Below, piece by piece: positions 16,168 through 23,654 of a stretch of 64,000 nt of DNA. The first letter of the stretch is position 1. Each line of letters opens with the position of its first letter. The notes under the pieces are model-generated. The model saw only the letters and a program-made list of their open reading frames with translations, had not been told where the DNA came from and did not search any database. The position numbers and the translations under genes were made by a program. Source of the stretch: Deltaproteobacteria bacterium (lineage in GTDB: Bacteria; Myxococcota_A; UBA796; GCA-2862545); NCBI GenBank assembly GCA_006226595.1, contig SBGP01000106.1, forward strand, positions 124,001 through 188,000. The letters run 5' to 3'.

Positions 16168-16206
16168 CTATAAACACAAACGGGATCGTGATGCTTCACG
16201 ATCCCG
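16168..16206 (-). terminator. Strong rho-independent terminator of the XPB-xseB operon
   Basis: CGGGATCGTGA (16181-16191) and TCACGATCCCG (16196-16206) form a perfect 11-bp stem with a 4-base loop. Read on the minus strand it is followed by TTTGTGTTTATAG, a good U-rich tail. It ends transcription 30 bases after the xseB stop. Confidence 0.88.
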
Positions 16207-16235
16207 CCGGATGAGGTGGAGACTAGCGTTTGGAG

Positions 16236-16457
16236 CTACTCGGGCTCCGGCAGCGCCTGCTCCTCGATCCCGCTGCTCCCGCGGGTGAGCGCGGCGACGC
16301 GCTGCTCGGCCGCCTCGAGCTGCTCGTGGCAGCTACGCGCGAGCTCGACGCCTTCCTCGAACAGGCTCAGGGCCTCCTCGAGGGGGATCTCAGCGCTCTC
16401 GAGCTTGCGAACGCGCTCCTCGAGCGCGGACAGCGATGCCTCGAATCCTTCTGCCAT
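16236..16457 (-). CDS. xseB: Exodeoxyribonuclease VII small subunit
   Basis: A 73-aa protein of typical XseB length with the family pattern FEASLSALEERVRKLE, ESAEIPLEEALSLFEEG and a coiled-coil second half (ARSCHEQLEAAEQRV). It is the accessory subunit of the ssDNA exonuclease XseA/XseB. The ATG overlaps the partner-gene stop by one base (TAATG), and GGAGG lies just upstream. xseA is not in the window. Coupling to an XPB helicase operon is unusual. Confidence 0.92.
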   Translation of the reverse strand: MAEGFEASLSALEERVRKLESAEIPLEEALSLFEEGVELARSCHEQLEAAEQRVAALTRGSSGIEEQALPEPE

Positions 16458-18721
16458 TACGCCTCCACGATCCGCAGTCGCTCGATCCGCTCGAGGTGGT
16501 AGGTCCGGCGCTCGCCGCTCTCGCGATCGAGTCCGACGAGCACCACCTGATCGCCCTTGAACGCCACGCGCTGCGGCTCGACCAGACAGGTGAGCTTCTG
16601 CGCGTTCTGGGTCTTGTACACCATCTCCACGTCCGTCTCCTCGGACATGGCGCGCTCGAGGATCTGCCGGGCCTCGGCCGCATCGACGAGCGGCGGCTTG
16701 TCTTCCTTGGCCTTCTTGCGCTTCGCGACCCGGGTGCCGGGCACGGCGTGCAGGGCCTCGGGCTCGACAGCCTCGAGTCCGCGCTTGAGCGGATCGACGC
16801 TGGCCTCGCGGGCCTCGCGAACCAGGCGGTGCAGGTTCTGGCGCGCCTCGACCGCCTCGGGATCGCCGGGGTAGCGGCGGGTGTCCGGGGTGGGGTCGAA
16901 GTTCAGGTCGCGGAGCACGCCCTCGATCTCCGCGCGACGGCTGGCGTCCACGGCGTACATGCCGGGGGCGAAGCGGTGCAGGAGGTAGGGCTTGATCTTC
17001 TTGTTGCCCTCGAGCCGTCGGATCTGGCTGCGGTGCACGGTCATCAGCGTGACCTCGTGGAACTCCACGTCACCGCGGTGGCCGATCCAGCCCTTGAGCG
17101 TGGACTCTACGTTCTCGGGCAGGCCGATCTGGCTGTTCTCGCGCAGGAACTGGAGCACGTCGTCCCGGCGCCACCCGCGATCCAGGCCGCGCTCGATGCT
17201 CGGCTCGGTGATCTTGTAGGTGTTCGCGCGGTCACAGCCGACGAGCTCGCCGAGCTCTCCGATCCGGAAGAGCAGGATCGGCGCGAGACCGGCCGGGGCC
17301 ATGATCTCGAAGCTCGGGGTCAGGTAGAACTGGCGGAAGCCGTCGTCCTCGGCCGGCGAGAGCAGCGCGCGACCGCGGGGGGAGAGGCGGTAGAACTTCT
17401 CCTGGCCCCACTGGCCCATCTCGAGCATGCCGGCGCGCACCAGCGGCGCGAAGCTGTACGACTCGCGCTCGTGGCTACGGGTCGCGGCGTAGGTTCCGCG
17501 CTGGTAGCGCTCGCGCCAGTCCGCACCCTTGCGCCACCGGCGGTACTGCGCGACGAGCGGGTTCTCGGCGACCCAGCCCTCCTCGTCGCTGCTCGCGGCG
17601 GCGTTGTGCACGGCCCACATGACCCACTCGGCCATGTCGAAGCGCTTCTCGAGAGCCCGGAACACCAGGTCGCGCTGGTCCTCGGGCTCGAGGTTGAGCC
17701 ACTCCTCGGTCGCGTCGCGGTTGAGCGACAGGTACTCACCGCGGAGCTCGACCAGCCCGTGCATCATCAGGAAGTCGATGTGGAAGGCGAACAGCTCGGA
17801 GTCGGACTCCCAGATCTGGGAGAAGAACTCGTCCATCGCCTCCTTGTCGTGGCGGTAGATCTCGTGGCGCTGCGTGAGCCGCGGGCTGTTCTGATCGATG
17901 TACGTCGCCAGGGACGCGATCGAGTAGTCGAGCGGCGGGCAGAACGGCTTGACGTCGATCACCCGCACGTCGTCGTGCACGAACAGGGGCAGGGACAGCT
18001 CGGGCTCGAGTGCCTCGATCAGCCCGTCCACGATCGGCATCGGCAGGATGTAGAAGAAGTCGCCGTCGCGCTCGTCGCTCGCGAACACGAGACCCTTGTC
18101 GGCGAGGGCCGAGAGCACGCGCTTCCACTCGCGCTCGTGGCCGCCGAAGGACAGGGACAGCTCGCGCACGAACTCGTCGCCATGGGCGACGCCGCCGGCC
18201 TGGACCAGCGCGGAGAGCGCCTTCTTGTCGCGCTCCTGCAGCTGGCGCAGCAGGTTGTCGATGCGCGAGGGCTGACCCAGTGCGCGCACGGCGAGCTGGA
18301 TCATGCGGTCCTTGGTGCCGACGCGACCGGGCTGACCACCGAGACCCTTGTACAGGTTCGAGATCAGCGAGTCGGGCATGCGCTGCAGCCAGGCCGCAGC
18401 GGCGTCGAGCTCCTCGCGGGAGATGCGACGACGACGGGCGCCGGCGCTGCCGGGGGCTCCACGACGGGCGCGGCTGTTGCGCTTGCGGGCCGGGTTGCGG
18501 CCGGTGGCCGGCACGGCGACCACGGGACCGGTGAGATCCACGGCGCGGCGTCCGCCGCGGCGCTGGGTCGTGGTCTCGGTGATCACCTCGTCGCCGTACA
18601 CCACGGTACCGCGATCGTGACCTCCGCCACCTCCGCCGTTGCCAGCTGCGCCGCGCTTCCGGCGACGGCGACGACGCCGACGACGGCTGTTCCCGGAGTC
18701 GACTTCAAGCTCTTCGGACAT
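16457..18721 (-). CDS. XPB helicase-associated protein with WYL-like C-terminus
   Basis: A 754-aa protein. The first 90 residues are a basic low-complexity tail (nine Arg in a row, Gly-rich). An alpha-helical middle part resembles the helicase-associated proteins encoded next to bacterial XPB. Residues about 460-570 (YLTPSFEIMAPAGLAP, IGELGELVGCDRANTYKIT, VESTLKGWIG) match the Helicase_C_3/XPB-Ssl2 N-terminal-type domain. The last 75 residues (VEMVYKTQNAQKLTCLVEPQRVAFKGDQVVLVGLD) look like a WYL ligand/nucleic-acid-binding domain. It lies 53 bases after the XPB gene and overlaps xseB. It probably acts as the DNA-binding partner of the helicase in repair. That role is inferred. Confidence 0.82.
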   Translation of the reverse strand: MSEELEVDSGNSRRRRRRRRRKRGAAGNGGGGGGHDRGTVVYGDEVITETTTQRRGGRRAVDLTGPVVAVPATGRNPARKRNSRARRGAPGSAGARRRRISREELDAAAAWLQRMPDSLISNLYKGLGGQPGRVGTKDRMIQLAVRALGQPSRIDNLLRQLQERDKKALSALVQAGGVAHGDEFVRELSLSFGGHEREWKRVLSALADKGLVFASDERDGDFFYILPMPIVDGLIEALEPELSLPLFVHDDVRVIDVKPFCPPLDYSIASLATYIDQNSPRLTQRHEIYRHDKEAMDEFFSQIWESDSELFAFHIDFLMMHGLVELRGEYLSLNRDATEEWLNLEPEDQRDLVFRALEKRFDMAEWVMWAVHNAAASSDEEGWVAENPLVAQYRRWRKGADWRERYQRGTYAATRSHERESYSFAPLVRAGMLEMGQWGQEKFYRLSPRGRALLSPAEDDGFRQFYLTPSFEIMAPAGLAPILLFRIGELGELVGCDRANTYKITEPSIERGLDRGWRRDDVLQFLRENSQIGLPENVESTLKGWIGHRGDVEFHEVTLMTVHRSQIRRLEGNKKIKPYLLHRFAPGMYAVDASRRAEIEGVLRDLNFDPTPDTRRYPGDPEAVEARQNLHRLVREAREASVDPLKRGLEAVEPEALHAVPGTRVAKRKKAKEDKPPLVDAAEARQILERAMSEETDVEMVYKTQNAQKLTCLVEPQRVAFKGDQVVLVGLDRESGERRTYHLERIERLRIVEA

Positions 18722-18774
18722 TCGTTCTCCGGCGCCGCGGCACCCCTCCCACTCCTACGTCGGGGAGGCGGTGC

Positions 18775-20451
18775 TCACTTCGCGGCGCGATCTTCGATGT
18801 AGTAGCGGTAGCCCTGCTCGGTGAGGAACAGCTGTCGCTTGATCGCGAACTCCTGCTCCTTCGTGTCCGAGGTGACCACGGTGTAGAAGAAGGCATCGGC
18901 CTCTTTCGGCCGAAGGATGCGACCCAGGCGCTGGGCTTCTTCCTGGCGGGAGCCGAAGGAGCCGGAAACCTGGATGGCCACGTTGGCGTCGGGCAGATCG
19001 ATGGCGAAGTTCGCCACCTTGCTCACCACGAGGCGCTTGATGATGCCCTTGCGGAACTTCGCGAACAGGCGGTCGCGCTCGGAGTGCGGCGTCTTGCCGG
19101 TGATCAGCGGCGCGCCCAGCTCCTCGGAGAGCTCGACGAGCTGCCCGAGGTACGTGCCGATGATCAGGACGTTGTCGTCCTCGTGGCGGTCGACGAGGTC
19201 CTTGACCACGTCGATCTTGCGCGGGTTCTCGGACGCGAGCCGGAACTTCTTCATCTCGTCCGCGTCTTCGTAGCGCTCGCGCTGGCGGCGCGTGAACGGC
19301 ACGCGGATCTCGAAGCACTTGGCCTCGGCGACGAAGCCCTGCTTCTCGAGGATCTGCCACGGCAGGTCGTAGCGCTTGGGGCCGACGAGCGAGAACACGT
19401 CGCCCTCGCGGCCATCCTCGCGGATGAGCGTCGCGGTCAGGCCCAGGCGGCGGCGTCCCTGGAGCTCGGCGGTGGCGCCGAACACGGGAGCGGGCAGCAG
19501 GTGGACCTCATCGTAGACGAGCAGGCCCCAGTTCTCGTCGCGGAACAGGTGCAGGTGCTCGAAGTCCGAGTTCTTCGAGCGGCGCCAGGTCAGGACCTGG
19601 TAGGTCGCGACGGTGACCGGCTTGATCTCCTTGGACTGACCCGTGTACGCGCCGACCTCGGCGTCGGTGAGCGTGGTCTTGTCCTTGATCTCGCGGATCC
19701 ACTGGTTCACGGCGCTCTGGTTGTTGCAGAGGATCAGGGTCTTCTGCTGCACCGTGGCCATGGCGGTCATCGCGACGATGGTCTTGCCGGCGCCGCACGG
19801 GAGCACGACCACACCGTGGCCACCCGCGGGCGCGCCCTTGGCGTACCAACGGTCGACGGCCTCGTGCTGGTAGTGGCGAGGGGAGAACGGCCGCCCACCG
19901 AGCGTCTCCTCGCGGAGCTTCATCGGCATCGGATCGCCGGGCAGGAAGCCCGCGATGTCCTCGACCGGCCAGTTGTCGAGCAACAGGCGCTGCTTGAAGA
20001 TGCCGCGCATGCCGGCGTCGATCTTGTAGTGACGACGCCCGTCCTGCAGCAGCAGGTCCTTGCCTGCCGCCGTCTTCTTCACGAGCTTCTCGACGTACCC
20101 GGTGGCGAAGCTCACACGGATGTACTTGTCGGGCTGATCGTGCGGCAGCAGCTGCACCAGGCCGTAGCGGCCGATGGTGTCCTCGATCTGGCGAAGCACG
20201 TCCTCGGGGATGTCGAACTTCGACAGGCCTCGGAGGGTCTCGACGATCTGGTCGCGGGTCATGCCAGCCGAGGCGGCATTCCACAGCGACAGCGGCGTGA
20301 TGCGGTAGGTGTGCAAGAGCTCCGGGGAGCTCTCGAGCTCGGCGAAGCGCGCCAGGAAGTCGCGCGCCTTGTCGAAGTCGGGATGACGGGTCTCGACGAG
20401 GACCTTGCCATCTCCCTGCACGATGACAGGGTTCGCTGGATTTATCTGCAT
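18775..20451 (-). CDS. XPB/Ssl2-type DNA helicase (superfamily 2)
   Basis: A 558-aa DNA helicase. It has an N-terminal XPB domain (about 1-170), Walker A PCGAGKTIV, Walker B/DExH as VYDEVHLLPA, motif III GLTATLIREDGREGD containing the XPB RED motif, and motif VI RQEEAQRLGRILRP. Bacterial XPB proteins are 3'-5' helicases linked to repair. The start ATG 20451 gives the usual XPB N-terminus. Upstream sequence stays open, but no homology supports a longer start. First gene of the xpb-partner-xseB operon; a TTGACA-type promoter lies about 210 bases upstream. Confidence 0.9.
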   Translation of the reverse strand: MQINPANPVIVQGDGKVLVETRHPDFDKARDFLARFAELESSPELLHTYRITPLSLWNAASAGMTRDQIVETLRGLSKFDIPEDVLRQIEDTIGRYGLVQLLPHDQPDKYIRVSFATGYVEKLVKKTAAGKDLLLQDGRRHYKIDAGMRGIFKQRLLLDNWPVEDIAGFLPGDPMPMKLREETLGGRPFSPRHYQHEAVDRWYAKGAPAGGHGVVVLPCGAGKTIVAMTAMATVQQKTLILCNNQSAVNQWIREIKDKTTLTDAEVGAYTGQSKEIKPVTVATYQVLTWRRSKNSDFEHLHLFRDENWGLLVYDEVHLLPAPVFGATAELQGRRRLGLTATLIREDGREGDVFSLVGPKRYDLPWQILEKQGFVAEAKCFEIRVPFTRRQRERYEDADEMKKFRLASENPRKIDVVKDLVDRHEDDNVLIIGTYLGQLVELSEELGAPLITGKTPHSERDRLFAKFRKGIIKRLVVSKVANFAIDLPDANVAIQVSGSFGSRQEEAQRLGRILRPKEADAFFYTVVTSDTKEQEFAIKRQLFLTEQGYRYYIEDRAAK

Positions 20452-20822
20452 CCGTGGACCATGCGTGTGGGTCCTCCCAAGCGAGACACCACGCCGAGCG
20501 AACGAGCTTCGGCACCCGAGGGTCTCGCAACCTGCCTCGCAGCGAGGCTTGCGGTGCGCGGTTGAGCGCGGAGGTACAGGTCGACTCACGCGGCGGGCGC
20601 CGCTGCGACTGAGGGACATCGAGGGAGCGCGGAGGGAAACCGCCTGCCTCGCGATCACAGTTACTCCCGACGCACACATTGTCAAGAACAACCGCGAAAA
20701 CGCCGGTGTCACGGTGTGTTTCGATTGGCTTGGCGCTCGGGACAGTCGGGGCGAGCTGGTGAGGGGGTTTCGCCGGGCATGCGCCTTGTACGCGGGTTTG
20801 GCGCGAGGCGGGGCCTCTGCGT
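20452..20822. other. Intergenic region upstream of the XPB operon
   Basis: No gene is supported in these 371 bases. The region holds a candidate minus-strand promoter (20658-20685), which leaves a leader of about 200 bases before the XPB start. No clear riboswitch or protein-binding palindrome was recognised in the leader. Confidence 0.5.
20658..20685 (-). promoter_or_regulatory. Candidate sigma-70 promoter of the XPB operon
   Basis: On the minus strand a perfect TTGACA (20685-20680) is followed after 16 bases by TAACTG (20663-20658), a weak -10. It lies in the most A+T-rich part of the intergenic region. The weak -10 keeps confidence moderate. Confidence 0.4.
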
Positions 20823-21779
20823 TCACCGCTCGAGCGACGACAGGCGTCGATCGCCGACGCCGAGCTCGACGACGACCGGTCGGTGGTCGCTGCCGGTGCC
20901 ACGGCCTTCGTGGACGTGGTGCACGCGGATCTCGTCGCTGACGAGCACGTGATCGAGGCGCAGGGTGGGGAGGGGAAACACGCCGTTGGGCCAGGTGGCG
21001 GCGGCGGCACGACCCCGCTGACCATGGGCGTCGGCGAGGCCGGCGTCGAGCAGACGCTGGTAGCTCGGATGGTGGCGCGTGGCGTTGAGGTCGCCCGCGA
21101 AGAGCACGGCGCCCTCGGTAGACGCGGCTTGCGCGGCCAGCATCGCCATCTGGGCGTGCCAGATCGCGGTGTACTCCGGGCTGCGAGGCGGCAGCGTGTG
21201 CACGGCGTACACCGTGAGTGGCCGGGCGCCGATGTGTGTGTGCGCGCGGATCAGCGGCACGCCACCGAGATCGAGGACCTCGGCCTCGAGGGGTACTCGG
21301 GAGAGCACGGCGATGCCGAACGAGCCCTCCTGAGGGAGCACCAGCCGGTAGGGGTAGCCCTCGACCTCGTCGAGCAGCGCGCCCCAGCCGGGGCTCACCT
21401 CCTGCAGCGCGAGGATGTCCGCGTCCTCGGCGAGCAGCTCGGCGAGCAGGTCGTGGGGCTCGGGGTTCACCATGAGCAGGTTCGCGGAGACGAGCCGCAG
21501 GTCGGCCTCTCCGTCGGGGGCGGTGCGGGGCAGGGTCCCGGGAACGACCAGGCCAAGGGCGATCAGGGCGGAGGGCACGGCGACGAGCTGGCGTGGTGTG
21601 GAGCCCGACCGCCAGGCCCACAGCCCGAGTGGCGTCGCGCCGAGCCACAGGTAGCCGGCGCCGGCGTGGAGCAGCGCCGAGGCGAAGCCGGCGTCGTCGA
21701 GCGCGAGGTGGGCAGCGACGAGCGCGGTGGTGGGAATGGCGGCGAGCCAGAATAGAGCGGCGACGAGCGTGCGAACCAT
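20823..21779 (-). CDS. Membrane-anchored endonuclease/exonuclease/phosphatase-family protein
   Basis: A 318-aa protein. Three hydrophobic segments cover residues 1-85. From about 92 it is an EEP-fold hydrolase: SANLLMVN, the metal-binding Glu in LALQEVSPGWG, AGDLNATRHHPSY, and the C-terminal SDHRPVVVEL with the catalytic His-Asp. This layout (membrane N-terminus plus extracytoplasmic EEP domain) is common. Substrates could be nucleic acid or phosphoesters of lipids and cannot be told from sequence. An AGGAGG ribosome site lies 4 bases before the start, partly inside the hairpin at 21787-21838. Confidence 0.87.
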   Translation of the reverse strand: MVRTLVAALFWLAAIPTTALVAAHLALDDAGFASALLHAGAGYLWLGATPLGLWAWRSGSTPRQLVAVPSALIALGLVVPGTLPRTAPDGEADLRLVSANLLMVNPEPHDLLAELLAEDADILALQEVSPGWGALLDEVEGYPYRLVLPQEGSFGIAVLSRVPLEAEVLDLGGVPLIRAHTHIGARPLTVYAVHTLPPRSPEYTAIWHAQMAMLAAQAASTEGAVLFAGDLNATRHHPSYQRLLDAGLADAHGQRGRAAAATWPNGVFPLPTLRLDHVLVSDEIRVHHVHEGRGTGSDHRPVVVELGVGDRRLSSLER

Positions 21780-21786
21780 GGATCCT

Positions 21787-21838
21787 CCTGACCCCAGGGA
21801 CGATGGGCAGGCCCCTCGGTTCGTCCCTGGACGTCAGG
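21787..21838 (-). terminator. Long hairpin between pepF and the EEP gene
   Basis: CCAGGGACGA (21794-21803) pairs perfectly with TCGTCCCTGG (21821-21830). Outer arms CCTGAC (21787-21792) and GTCAGG (21833-21838) extend the stem. It lies 44 bases after the pepF stop. There is no T tract. The outer arm overlaps the AGGAGG (21784-21789) of the next gene, so it may also affect translation. Confidence 0.55.
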
Positions 21839-21881
21839 CTAGGTCGCGCTCGTGCACCGCTCGTGCAGAGCCTTCGGAGCT

Positions 21882-23654
21882 TCAGGCGGTGAGGGCCAGG
21901 AAGTCGTCGAGCGGCGCGAGGGCCTCGTCCACTGCGGCATCCCAGAACGCCTGGGTGCGCACGTCTCCGCCGAGGAACTCCATGGCGATGGACTCGGTGT
22001 CGCGCCAGCCGGTCGCGGCGAGCAGTGCGTCGTAGGTGTCGATGAAGCCCTCTCCCGCGGCCTTTCCGTGGGCGTACACCGCGCCGCTGAACAGGTAGCC
22101 GAACAGGTAGGGCCAGTTGTAGAAGCCGAAGTGGCTGATGTAGTAGTGGAGCTTGCTCGCCCAGTACCAGCGATCTGGCGTGCCGAGGATGTCGCCGAAG
22201 TGCTCGCGCTGGATGCGCTCCATCTCGTCGCACAGCACGTCGGCGTCGAAGGCACCCTCGCGGCGAAGCTCGTACAGGCGGCACTCGAAGGCGTAGCGCA
22301 TCGGGATGTTCATCATGAACACCGCGGCGTCCTGCAGCTGCTGGTCGAGCATCGCGATGCGTTGGGTCTCGTCCTCGGCGACCTGGATCGCGTGGTCGCG
22401 GAGGATGGCCTCGCAGAAGGTGGAGGCGGTCTCGGCCAGCGCCGAGGTGATGCGGTGCTTCTGCGGGCTGTCGGCGCGGAAGAGCACGCTGTTGTGGTAG
22501 GCGTGGCCGAGCTCGTGCGCGAGGGTGAGCGCGTTGTCGAGGGTGTCGCCGTAGGTCATGAAGATCCGGCTCTCGCCCGACAGCGGCAGCCGCGTGCAGT
22601 AGCCGCCCTGTGCCTTGCCGTCGCGGCGCTCGGCCTCGACCCAGCGCTTGTCGAGCGCGCGCTTGGCGAAGTCGCCGATGGGGCTCGCGAAGCGGTCGAA
22701 GGCGGTGGTAATCATCGCGGTGGCCTGGTCCCACGGCACACTCGCGCCCTCGCCGGCGACCAGCGGCGCGTGCAGGTCCCAGAAGTCGAGCTTGTCCTTG
22801 CCGATGAGCTTGGCCTTGCGGGCCAGGTACTGCTCGAGACGGGGACGGGCGGCCTCGGCGGCAGCGAGCAGGGCCTCGAGGCTCTCGCGCTCGATGCGGT
22901 TTCGGAACAGGGTCGGAGCGAGGTGGTCGGCGCCCACCCGGTCGAGCATGGCCTGGCGCTCGCCGGTAATGTGGGTGAGCGCCATCGCGCACGGGGTCGA
23001 CAGCGTGGCCCACGCGGCACCCTCGGCCTCGAACGCCGCCTTGCGGATCGCCTCGTCCGGGTGGTTGCGGTAGGGCGCGATCGCGGCGATGCCGACCTGC
23101 TTCGGCTCCTCGCCGGGCAGGGTCAGGGTCGCGGTGAGCTCGCCGGACATCGCGGTGTACAGGCTTCCCCAGCCGTGCAGGGCCTCGCGCTCGAGCTGGG
23201 AGCGCAGCTCCTGCAGCGGGCGGTCGAGCTCGAGCTTCTTGCCCTCGACCATGTGCTCGATGCCCGAGCGGTGCGGTGCGATGTCCTCGCGGGACAGCCA
23301 GGCCTCGCGGGCGTCGGCGTCGGCGTCGGCGACGGTCCATGACAGGGCGAGCCAGGCGCGGTCCATGGCGAGGAACACCTCCATCACCGCGTTGGTCGCG
23401 AGGCGCGCGGCGGTGTCCTTCGTGTTCGCCGAGGCGTGGCAGCCGGCGAAGGCGTTGAGCTGACGGCCGCGGTTGCCGAGGTCCTGCAGGTCGAGGAGCA
23501 GGGCGGCCGCGTCGTCGCCGAGACCGTCGAGGGACTCGGAGCGGGCGATGGCCGCGTCGCCGTCGCGCTTGAAGGCGGCCAGGGCGGCGGTGAACGCCTC
23601 ACCCCGCACGCCGCCAGTCATCACGCTGTCCAGGTCCCAGGTCGGTGCACGCAT
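21882..23654 (-). CDS. pepF: Oligoendopeptidase F-type M3 metallopeptidase
   Basis: A 590-aa zinc endopeptidase that degrades oligopeptides in the cytoplasm. The zinc motif HELGHAYHN lies near residue 380, with the downstream family segment AETASTFCE supplying the third ligand. An N-terminal oligoendopeptidase F domain contains AGCHASANTKDTAARL. Start 23654 (MRAPTW) is preferred to the Met four codons upstream, because GGGAG sits between the two. Monocistronic by context, with a hairpin after it. It is divergent to the small lipoprotein pair. Confidence 0.9.
   Translation of the reverse strand: MRAPTWDLDSVMTGGVRGEAFTAALAAFKRDGDAAIARSESLDGLGDDAAALLLDLQDLGNRGRQLNAFAGCHASANTKDTAARLATNAVMEVFLAMDRAWLALSWTVADADADAREAWLSREDIAPHRSGIEHMVEGKKLELDRPLQELRSQLEREALHGWGSLYTAMSGELTATLTLPGEEPKQVGIAAIAPYRNHPDEAIRKAAFEAEGAAWATLSTPCAMALTHITGERQAMLDRVGADHLAPTLFRNRIERESLEALLAAAEAARPRLEQYLARKAKLIGKDKLDFWDLHAPLVAGEGASVPWDQATAMITTAFDRFASPIGDFAKRALDKRWVEAERRDGKAQGGYCTRLPLSGESRIFMTYGDTLDNALTLAHELGHAYHNSVLFRADSPQKHRITSALAETASTFCEAILRDHAIQVAEDETQRIAMLDQQLQDAAVFMMNIPMRYAFECRLYELRREGAFDADVLCDEMERIQREHFGDILGTPDRWYWASKLHYYISHFGFYNWPYLFGYLFSGAVYAHGKAAGEGFIDTYDALLAATGWRDTESIAMEFLGGDVRTQAFWDAAVDEALAPLDDFLALTA

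Follow-up and report, generated by a model that had tools for sequence, protein, structure and literature searches.

A p52/Tfb2-like protein as the proposed partner of XPB in a bacterial xpb-partner-xseB gene unit

In TFIIH, XPB is recruited by p52, whose clutch forms a pseudo-symmetric dimer with the XPB N-terminal domain and whose C-terminal module pairs with p8 (PMC6422496); p52 also stimulates the XPB ATPase (PMC3353954, PMC13024598). Archaeal XPB is contacted in its ThM and HD2 regions by Bax1 (PMC13024598). For bacteria, a study from 2012 notes that homologues of other TFIIH subunits had not been identified (PMC3353954), and a 2026 review calls bacterial XPB function elusive (PMC13024598). 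Purified mycobacterial XPB is active only in molar excess (PMC3353954). MAP_0800c of M. avium is annotated with Helicase_C_3 (PMC7601679), and Rv0862c, listed as a "conserved protein, function unknown", attenuates growth when inactivated (PMC3656116). A bacterial p52 was not found in the open-access literature, subscription papers being outside the scope. Here we describe a locus in which xpb is followed by a gene for a p52-like protein and by xseB. We propose, with a probability of about 0.78, that the core unit consists of xpb and a partner working like p52/Tfb2, and that xseB is a housekeeping gene joined downstream in this taxonomic order only.

Organization of the locus and predicted fold of the partner protein

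The window is the whole stretch of 64,000 nucleotides that was analysed. Its xpb gene (18775..20451, minus strand), the copy here named XPB1, encodes an SF2 helicase of 558 aa that scores 801 bits against the NCBIfam model NF045503 "DNA repair helicase XPB" (cut-off 610), matches Rad25/Ssl2 with an E-value of 1.1e-84 in phmmer and, on inspection of the sequence, carries Walker A (GAGKT), DEVH and RED motifs. The N-terminal domain of XPB (aa 9-115; 20107..20427, minus strand) gives 102.6 bits to PF13625 and aligns to residues 134-227 of yeast Ssl2. A minus-strand frame of 1521 aa (18775-23340) results from reading xpb on into the open sequence upstream of it and was rejected as a high-GC artefact. 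After a gap of 53 nt follows the partner gene (16457..18721, minus strand), whose 754-aa product is assigned from Pfam and its predicted structure as p52/Tfb2-like with a C-terminal WYL domain, and then xseB (16236..16457, minus strand), encoding the 73-aa small subunit of exonuclease VII (ExoVII; 71.6 bits to TIGR01280, cut-off 35; PF02609 also above cut-off). The unit is closed by an intrinsic terminator (16179..16208, minus strand) with a 13-bp stem, a 4-nt loop, a T-rich tail and a fold z-score of -4.25; a sigma-70 promoter scan of the region gave no match. Downstream of the unit lie tonB, exbB, two exbD-like genes, ispA and tlyA. The preliminary description had read the three genes as a contiguous run in which xseB overlaps the partner gene and a strong terminator ends the unit. 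Coordinates and HMM matches bear out the row, with all three genes on the minus strand; the overlap is the TAATG at 16457, in which the partner TAA and the xseB ATG have one base in common, and the terminator stands as described.

The only domains that Pfam recognizes in the partner are Helicase_C_3 (aa 469-584) and WYL (aa 686-751). An AlphaFold model was built from an alignment of 19 relatives, here called family A1 (pLDDT 75). In a Foldseek search of the PDB, TFIIH p52/Tfb2 chains took each of the top 18 places among the matches to this model, the best with E 1.8e-8 and prob 1.00, and WYL regulators ranked below them. VIA-align fits the model to p52 chains with Z about 12 over 340-372 residues; for 9pcp_D, aa 118-610 of the predicted structure align to p52 27-462 with Z 12.3 over 372 residues and a high global rmsd. 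The model has the same domain order as p52, from winged-helix region through clutch to C-terminal module. Its helical/winged-helix region (aa 101-459; 17345..18421, minus strand) matches the N-terminal part of p52, the p52 alignments starting at model aa 89-155. The predicted clutch (aa 460-548; 17078..17344, minus strand), assigned from its structure match and from PF13625, has the fold of the XPB N-terminal domain, where Helicase_C_3 is also found, and fits the human XPB N-terminal domain with Z 15.0 and rmsd 1.8 over 89 residues (VIA-align). The following segment (aa 549-611; 16889..17077, minus strand) stands at the place of the p8-binding C-terminal module of p52, the alignments reaching model aa 606-610 and p52 458-462. 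With a global rmsd to p52 of mostly 12-24 A and TM-scores of 0.2-0.3, the match extends to the domains and their order but not to their arrangement. Sequence similarity to p52 is weak and limited to the clutch; the post-clutch domain scored 15.2 against the p52 C-terminal domain (CTD) in a sequence profile comparison with a shuffled-null maximum of 21.6, and the window partner gave no match to any Tfb2 HMM. Because it does not reach the Tfb2 HMM cut-off, the partner is not placed in the Tfb2 family; judged by its predicted fold, it is best described as p52-like.

The WYL domain (aa 680-754; 16460..16684, minus strand) gives 37.2 bits to PF13280 (cut-off 21.8) and superposes on PafBC with Z 12.6 and rmsd 1.2 (VIA-align); by eye, its W-Y-L triad is apparently replaced (DQVVLVGLD, near aa 725-733). 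The "basic tail" earlier ascribed to the partner exists as an Arg run, which lies at the N-terminus (aa 13-22; 18656..18685, minus strand), is disordered in the model and recurs in most, not all, members of A1. Pfam matches to E 5 for 19 partner family members comprised no nuclease family.

Linkage within the order and history of xseB

The positions of XPB, xseB and xseA were determined in 58 genomes from the window's order, which spans 33 genera. The succession of an XPB1 copy (65-88% identical), the partner and xseB recurs across the order more than expected by chance, and a second XPB copy in the same order (about 50-55% identical) has no partner-xseB downstream. Partner and xseB were together in 52 of the 53 judgeable genomes, a count that excludes genomes with contig breaks or with no xseB found; the exception, G043, has XPB-partner (L256) and xseB (L191) on separate contigs. 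Within the order the gap between partner and xseB ranges from overlap up to 2.8 kb, being 0.8-2.8 kb in some genomes. The window's genome has a single xseB and, on another contig, a single xseA (G000:C40:42870); the two genes are on different contigs in its relatives as well, except for a second, divergent xseA-xseB pair in G037 (G037:C43:32339-33794, L194), a genome with 8% contamination, where the pair is probably due to contamination or transfer. At L190 (G048:C68), XPB1 matches only at both ends before an intact partner, and the gene is interrupted or poorly assembled. The partner gene of this order also occurs in public MAG records (L101, L110, L113, L120, L142 and L145) that bear the names Klebsiella pneumoniae or Bifidobacterium breve; these names are probably wrong.

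Sister orders from the same class (G064-G070) likewise have XPB and partner side by side, and for these two genes the reading as one unit in the preliminary description holds. There, xseB lies directly upstream of ispA-tlyA, without XPB, and at the two loci read the genes immediately upstream of xseB were not xseA. In the window's order, tonB-exbBD stands between xseB and ispA-tlyA. Since the sister orders keep XPB and partner together and have xseB in a separate xseB-ispA-tlyA cluster, the link of xseB to XPB is an order-specific joining, and the simplest history is that the two neighbourhoods were joined once, in the window's order only. Being the sole copy in its genome, the window's xseB must serve the ordinary ExoVII, which is encoded at another site. 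Though old and stable, the link gives no reason to infer an action of XPB on ExoVII.

Relatives of the partner and of the second XPB locus

XPB loci of other phyla were taken from the plasmid collection with XPB as bait. A tblastn search of this collection with the window partner gave no match. All ten non-archaeal loci (three from Deinococcus, one from Paenibacillus, five from Actinomycetota and one from a cyanobacterium) have a Helicase_C_3 partner within 6 kb of XPB, that of the cyanobacterium being weak; the phyla represented are thus Deinococcota, Bacillota, Actinomycetota and, weakly, Cyanobacteriota. In the three Deinococcus species the gene order is XPB, small protein, partner. The XPB and partner genes overlap in Paenibacillus and lie in overlapping frames in Arthrobacter, and Actinomyces, Tsukamurella, Nocardia and Nonomuraea encode a Helicase_C_3 protein within 6 kb of XPB. 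The gene directly upstream of XPB in Gloeocapsopsis matches PF13625 with E 2e-7, below cut-off. No helicase-associated gene is annotated beside XPB in the one haloarchaeal record (L274). Relatives of the partner in these other phyla keep the clutch and gave no WYL match.

XPB-bearing genomes from other classes of the window's phylum contain a protein of 730-820 aa, here called A2, which is unlinked to XPB, keeps the clutch and likewise gave no WYL match. A2 is homologous to A1: hhalign gives 98% with E 2e-13 and a score of 115, versus a shuffle maximum of 26. The top 18 Foldseek matches of the A2 model in the PDB are again p52/Tfb2 (E 3.6e-8), and aa 34-604 of the model fit p52 24-459 with Z about 14.8. 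The A2 profile finds Tfb2/p52 as its best match among PDB sequences (E 0.0034), with Rad25 and human p52 next in rank, and an A2 relative matches the Tfb2 HMMs at the expected place, weakly and below the curated cut-off (PF03849, E 0.015; TIGR00625 tfb2, E 0.0028). Outside the window's class, an A2-type protein over the Pfam cut-off is present in 10 of 11 genomes with XPB and in 0 of 43 without it, a co-occurrence that is clumped in two families and represents few independent events; G078 has XPB alone, without an A2-type protein. Weak Helicase_C_3 frames of 691-839 aa were also seen in genomes without XPB (G072:C46:3261, G100:C8:26096, G112:C12:52240 and G116:C85:160216).

In the XPB tree the two XPB copies fall into separate, fully supported groups. 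The second XPB of families f1, f3, f4 and f6 overlaps by 1-4 nt a gene for a protein of 484-506 aa with a clutch at its C-terminus, which hhalign matches to the clutch of the window partner at 93% with a score of 42, versus a shuffle maximum of 20. The window's own genome has such a gene (L033:4632-6083, G000:C41) downstream of the second XPB, with which it shares 4 nt. It encodes 484 aa with a clutch-like end missed by Pfam, and with that XPB it makes up a second XPB-p52-like pair in this genome. Families f2 and f5 have instead, overlapping the stop of the second XPB, a gene of 67-74 aa whose substitutions follow a coding pattern (L079:5827-6048, L064:5855-6067, L069:4730-4936, L077:3676-3882, L086:4707-4907 and L090:4763-4978). 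Homology links this short protein to the N-terminal part of the 484-506-aa protein, to the small protein of 99-115 aa encoded between XPB and partner in Deinococcus (L268:7755-8102, L271:7759-8088 and L272:7762-8061) and to the C-terminal domain of A2; the one Deinococcus protein scanned with Pfam gave no match above cut-off. Beside the second XPB of the window's order, the small domain is either encoded on its own or fused to the clutch protein. p8 is structurally related to the CTD of p52, and by analogy the short f2/f5 proteins are possibly p8-like. An assignment of the small proteins to p8 by sequence was rejected, as their profile scores against p8 (10-15) fall within the shuffled null (maximum 14-16) and the similarity is not above chance, so that p8 serves as an analogy only.

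Proposed role of the XPB-partner unit and comparison with known systems

The preliminary description had suggested a repair module in which XPB, partner and XseB act jointly, exonuclease VII being recruited or tuned at damage by the partner or by XPB. In its favour stands the near-constant partner-xseB association within the order, often with overlapping genes, and xseA is indeed absent from the unit. We nevertheless consider joint action very improbable, since the sister orders have xseB with ispA-tlyA and apart from XPB-partner, xseA never occurs within the unit (the only one beside an xseB belongs to the second pair of G037), partner and xseB lie 0.8-2.8 kb apart in some genomes of the order itself and are detached in one, and no xseB is annotated beside XPB in the four further phyla, three of the records being without gene annotation. 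The arrangement that had been named as telling against the proposal, xseB beside xseA with the XPB linkage absent, is found in its latter half: in the sister orders the xseB cluster lacks the XPB linkage, and xseA is absent from that cluster too.

The remaining alternatives concern the partner itself. It could be a transcription factor of the WYL type with the operon or a damage regulon under its control, instead of being a structural subunit for XPB, as its PafBC- and DriD-like WYL domain, its winged helices and the response of WYL regulators to single-stranded DNA (ssDNA) in the DNA-damage response (PMC11804915) would suggest; this is unlikely, given that relatives in other classes and phyla keep the clutch without a WYL match, that Foldseek places p52 above every WYL regulator and that the clutch has the XPB N-terminal domain fold. 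The Helicase_C_3 domain common to partner and XPB would also fit a degenerate XPB paralogue that kept its N-terminal domain by duplication and has no TFIIH-like role. We give this only the faintest chance, for the partner is without helicase domains, several hundred further residues of it match p52 in order, and its linkage to and co-occurrence with XPB are conserved.

We favour a core unit of xpb and a p52/Tfb2-like partner, for which the direct evidence consists of the genes, their synteny, homology and predicted folds. The partner clutch and the XPB N-terminal domain would form a pseudo-symmetric dimer that anchors XPB, and the partner would load XPB on DNA and stimulate its ATPase. The winged-helix region and the Arg-rich tail might provide binding sites for DNA or a further protein. 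The WYL domain may sense ssDNA, because WYL regulators bind it (DriD-ssDNA structures; PafBC, PMC11804915). The unit would have its role in repair or transcription, and xseB appears to be a linked neighbour outside its mechanism. Bacteria may even carry a stripped-down TFIIH "XPB module" in which XPB and a p52-like clutch protein are joined, in some lineages, by a small p8-like protein, a suggestion to which we give somewhat less than even odds; if it is true, XPB-p52 coupling predates, or was exchanged with, the eukaryotic complex.

The role of bacterial XPB has been described as poorly understood. A p52-like partner offers a testable reason for the poor activity of lone purified mycobacterial XPB, and the pair could provide a minimal system for the activation of XPB by p52 and hint at how TFIIH arose. 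Like p52/Tfb2 (GTF2H4; PF03849, TIGR00625), the partner has winged helices, clutch and C-terminal module in order, its clutch has the XPB N-terminal domain fold, and it is a putative partner of XPB. Unlike p52/Tfb2, it is bacterial and about 750 aa long, begins with an Arg-rich stretch, carries a WYL domain in addition and lacks a Tfb2 HMM match, and a counterpart of p8 is only suggested, in relatives of the window's partner. Mycobacterial XPB (Rv0861c) presumably offers a comparable case, in that its numbered neighbour Rv0862c carries Helicase_C_3. In archaeal XPB-Bax1, as in the window's unit, XPB has one dedicated partner instead of TFIIH, and the earlier suggestion that the partner occupies the place of Bax1 agrees with the conserved XPB-partner unit. 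Unlike Bax1, the window's partner has no Pfam nuclease match, and Bax1 binds ThM and HD2 of XPB (PMC13024598), in contrast to the N-terminal clutch predicted here. PafBC, DriD and BrxR have the same C-terminal WYL fold (rmsd 1.2-2.5); they are DNA-binding regulators, whereas in the partner the WYL domain ends a p52-like protein.
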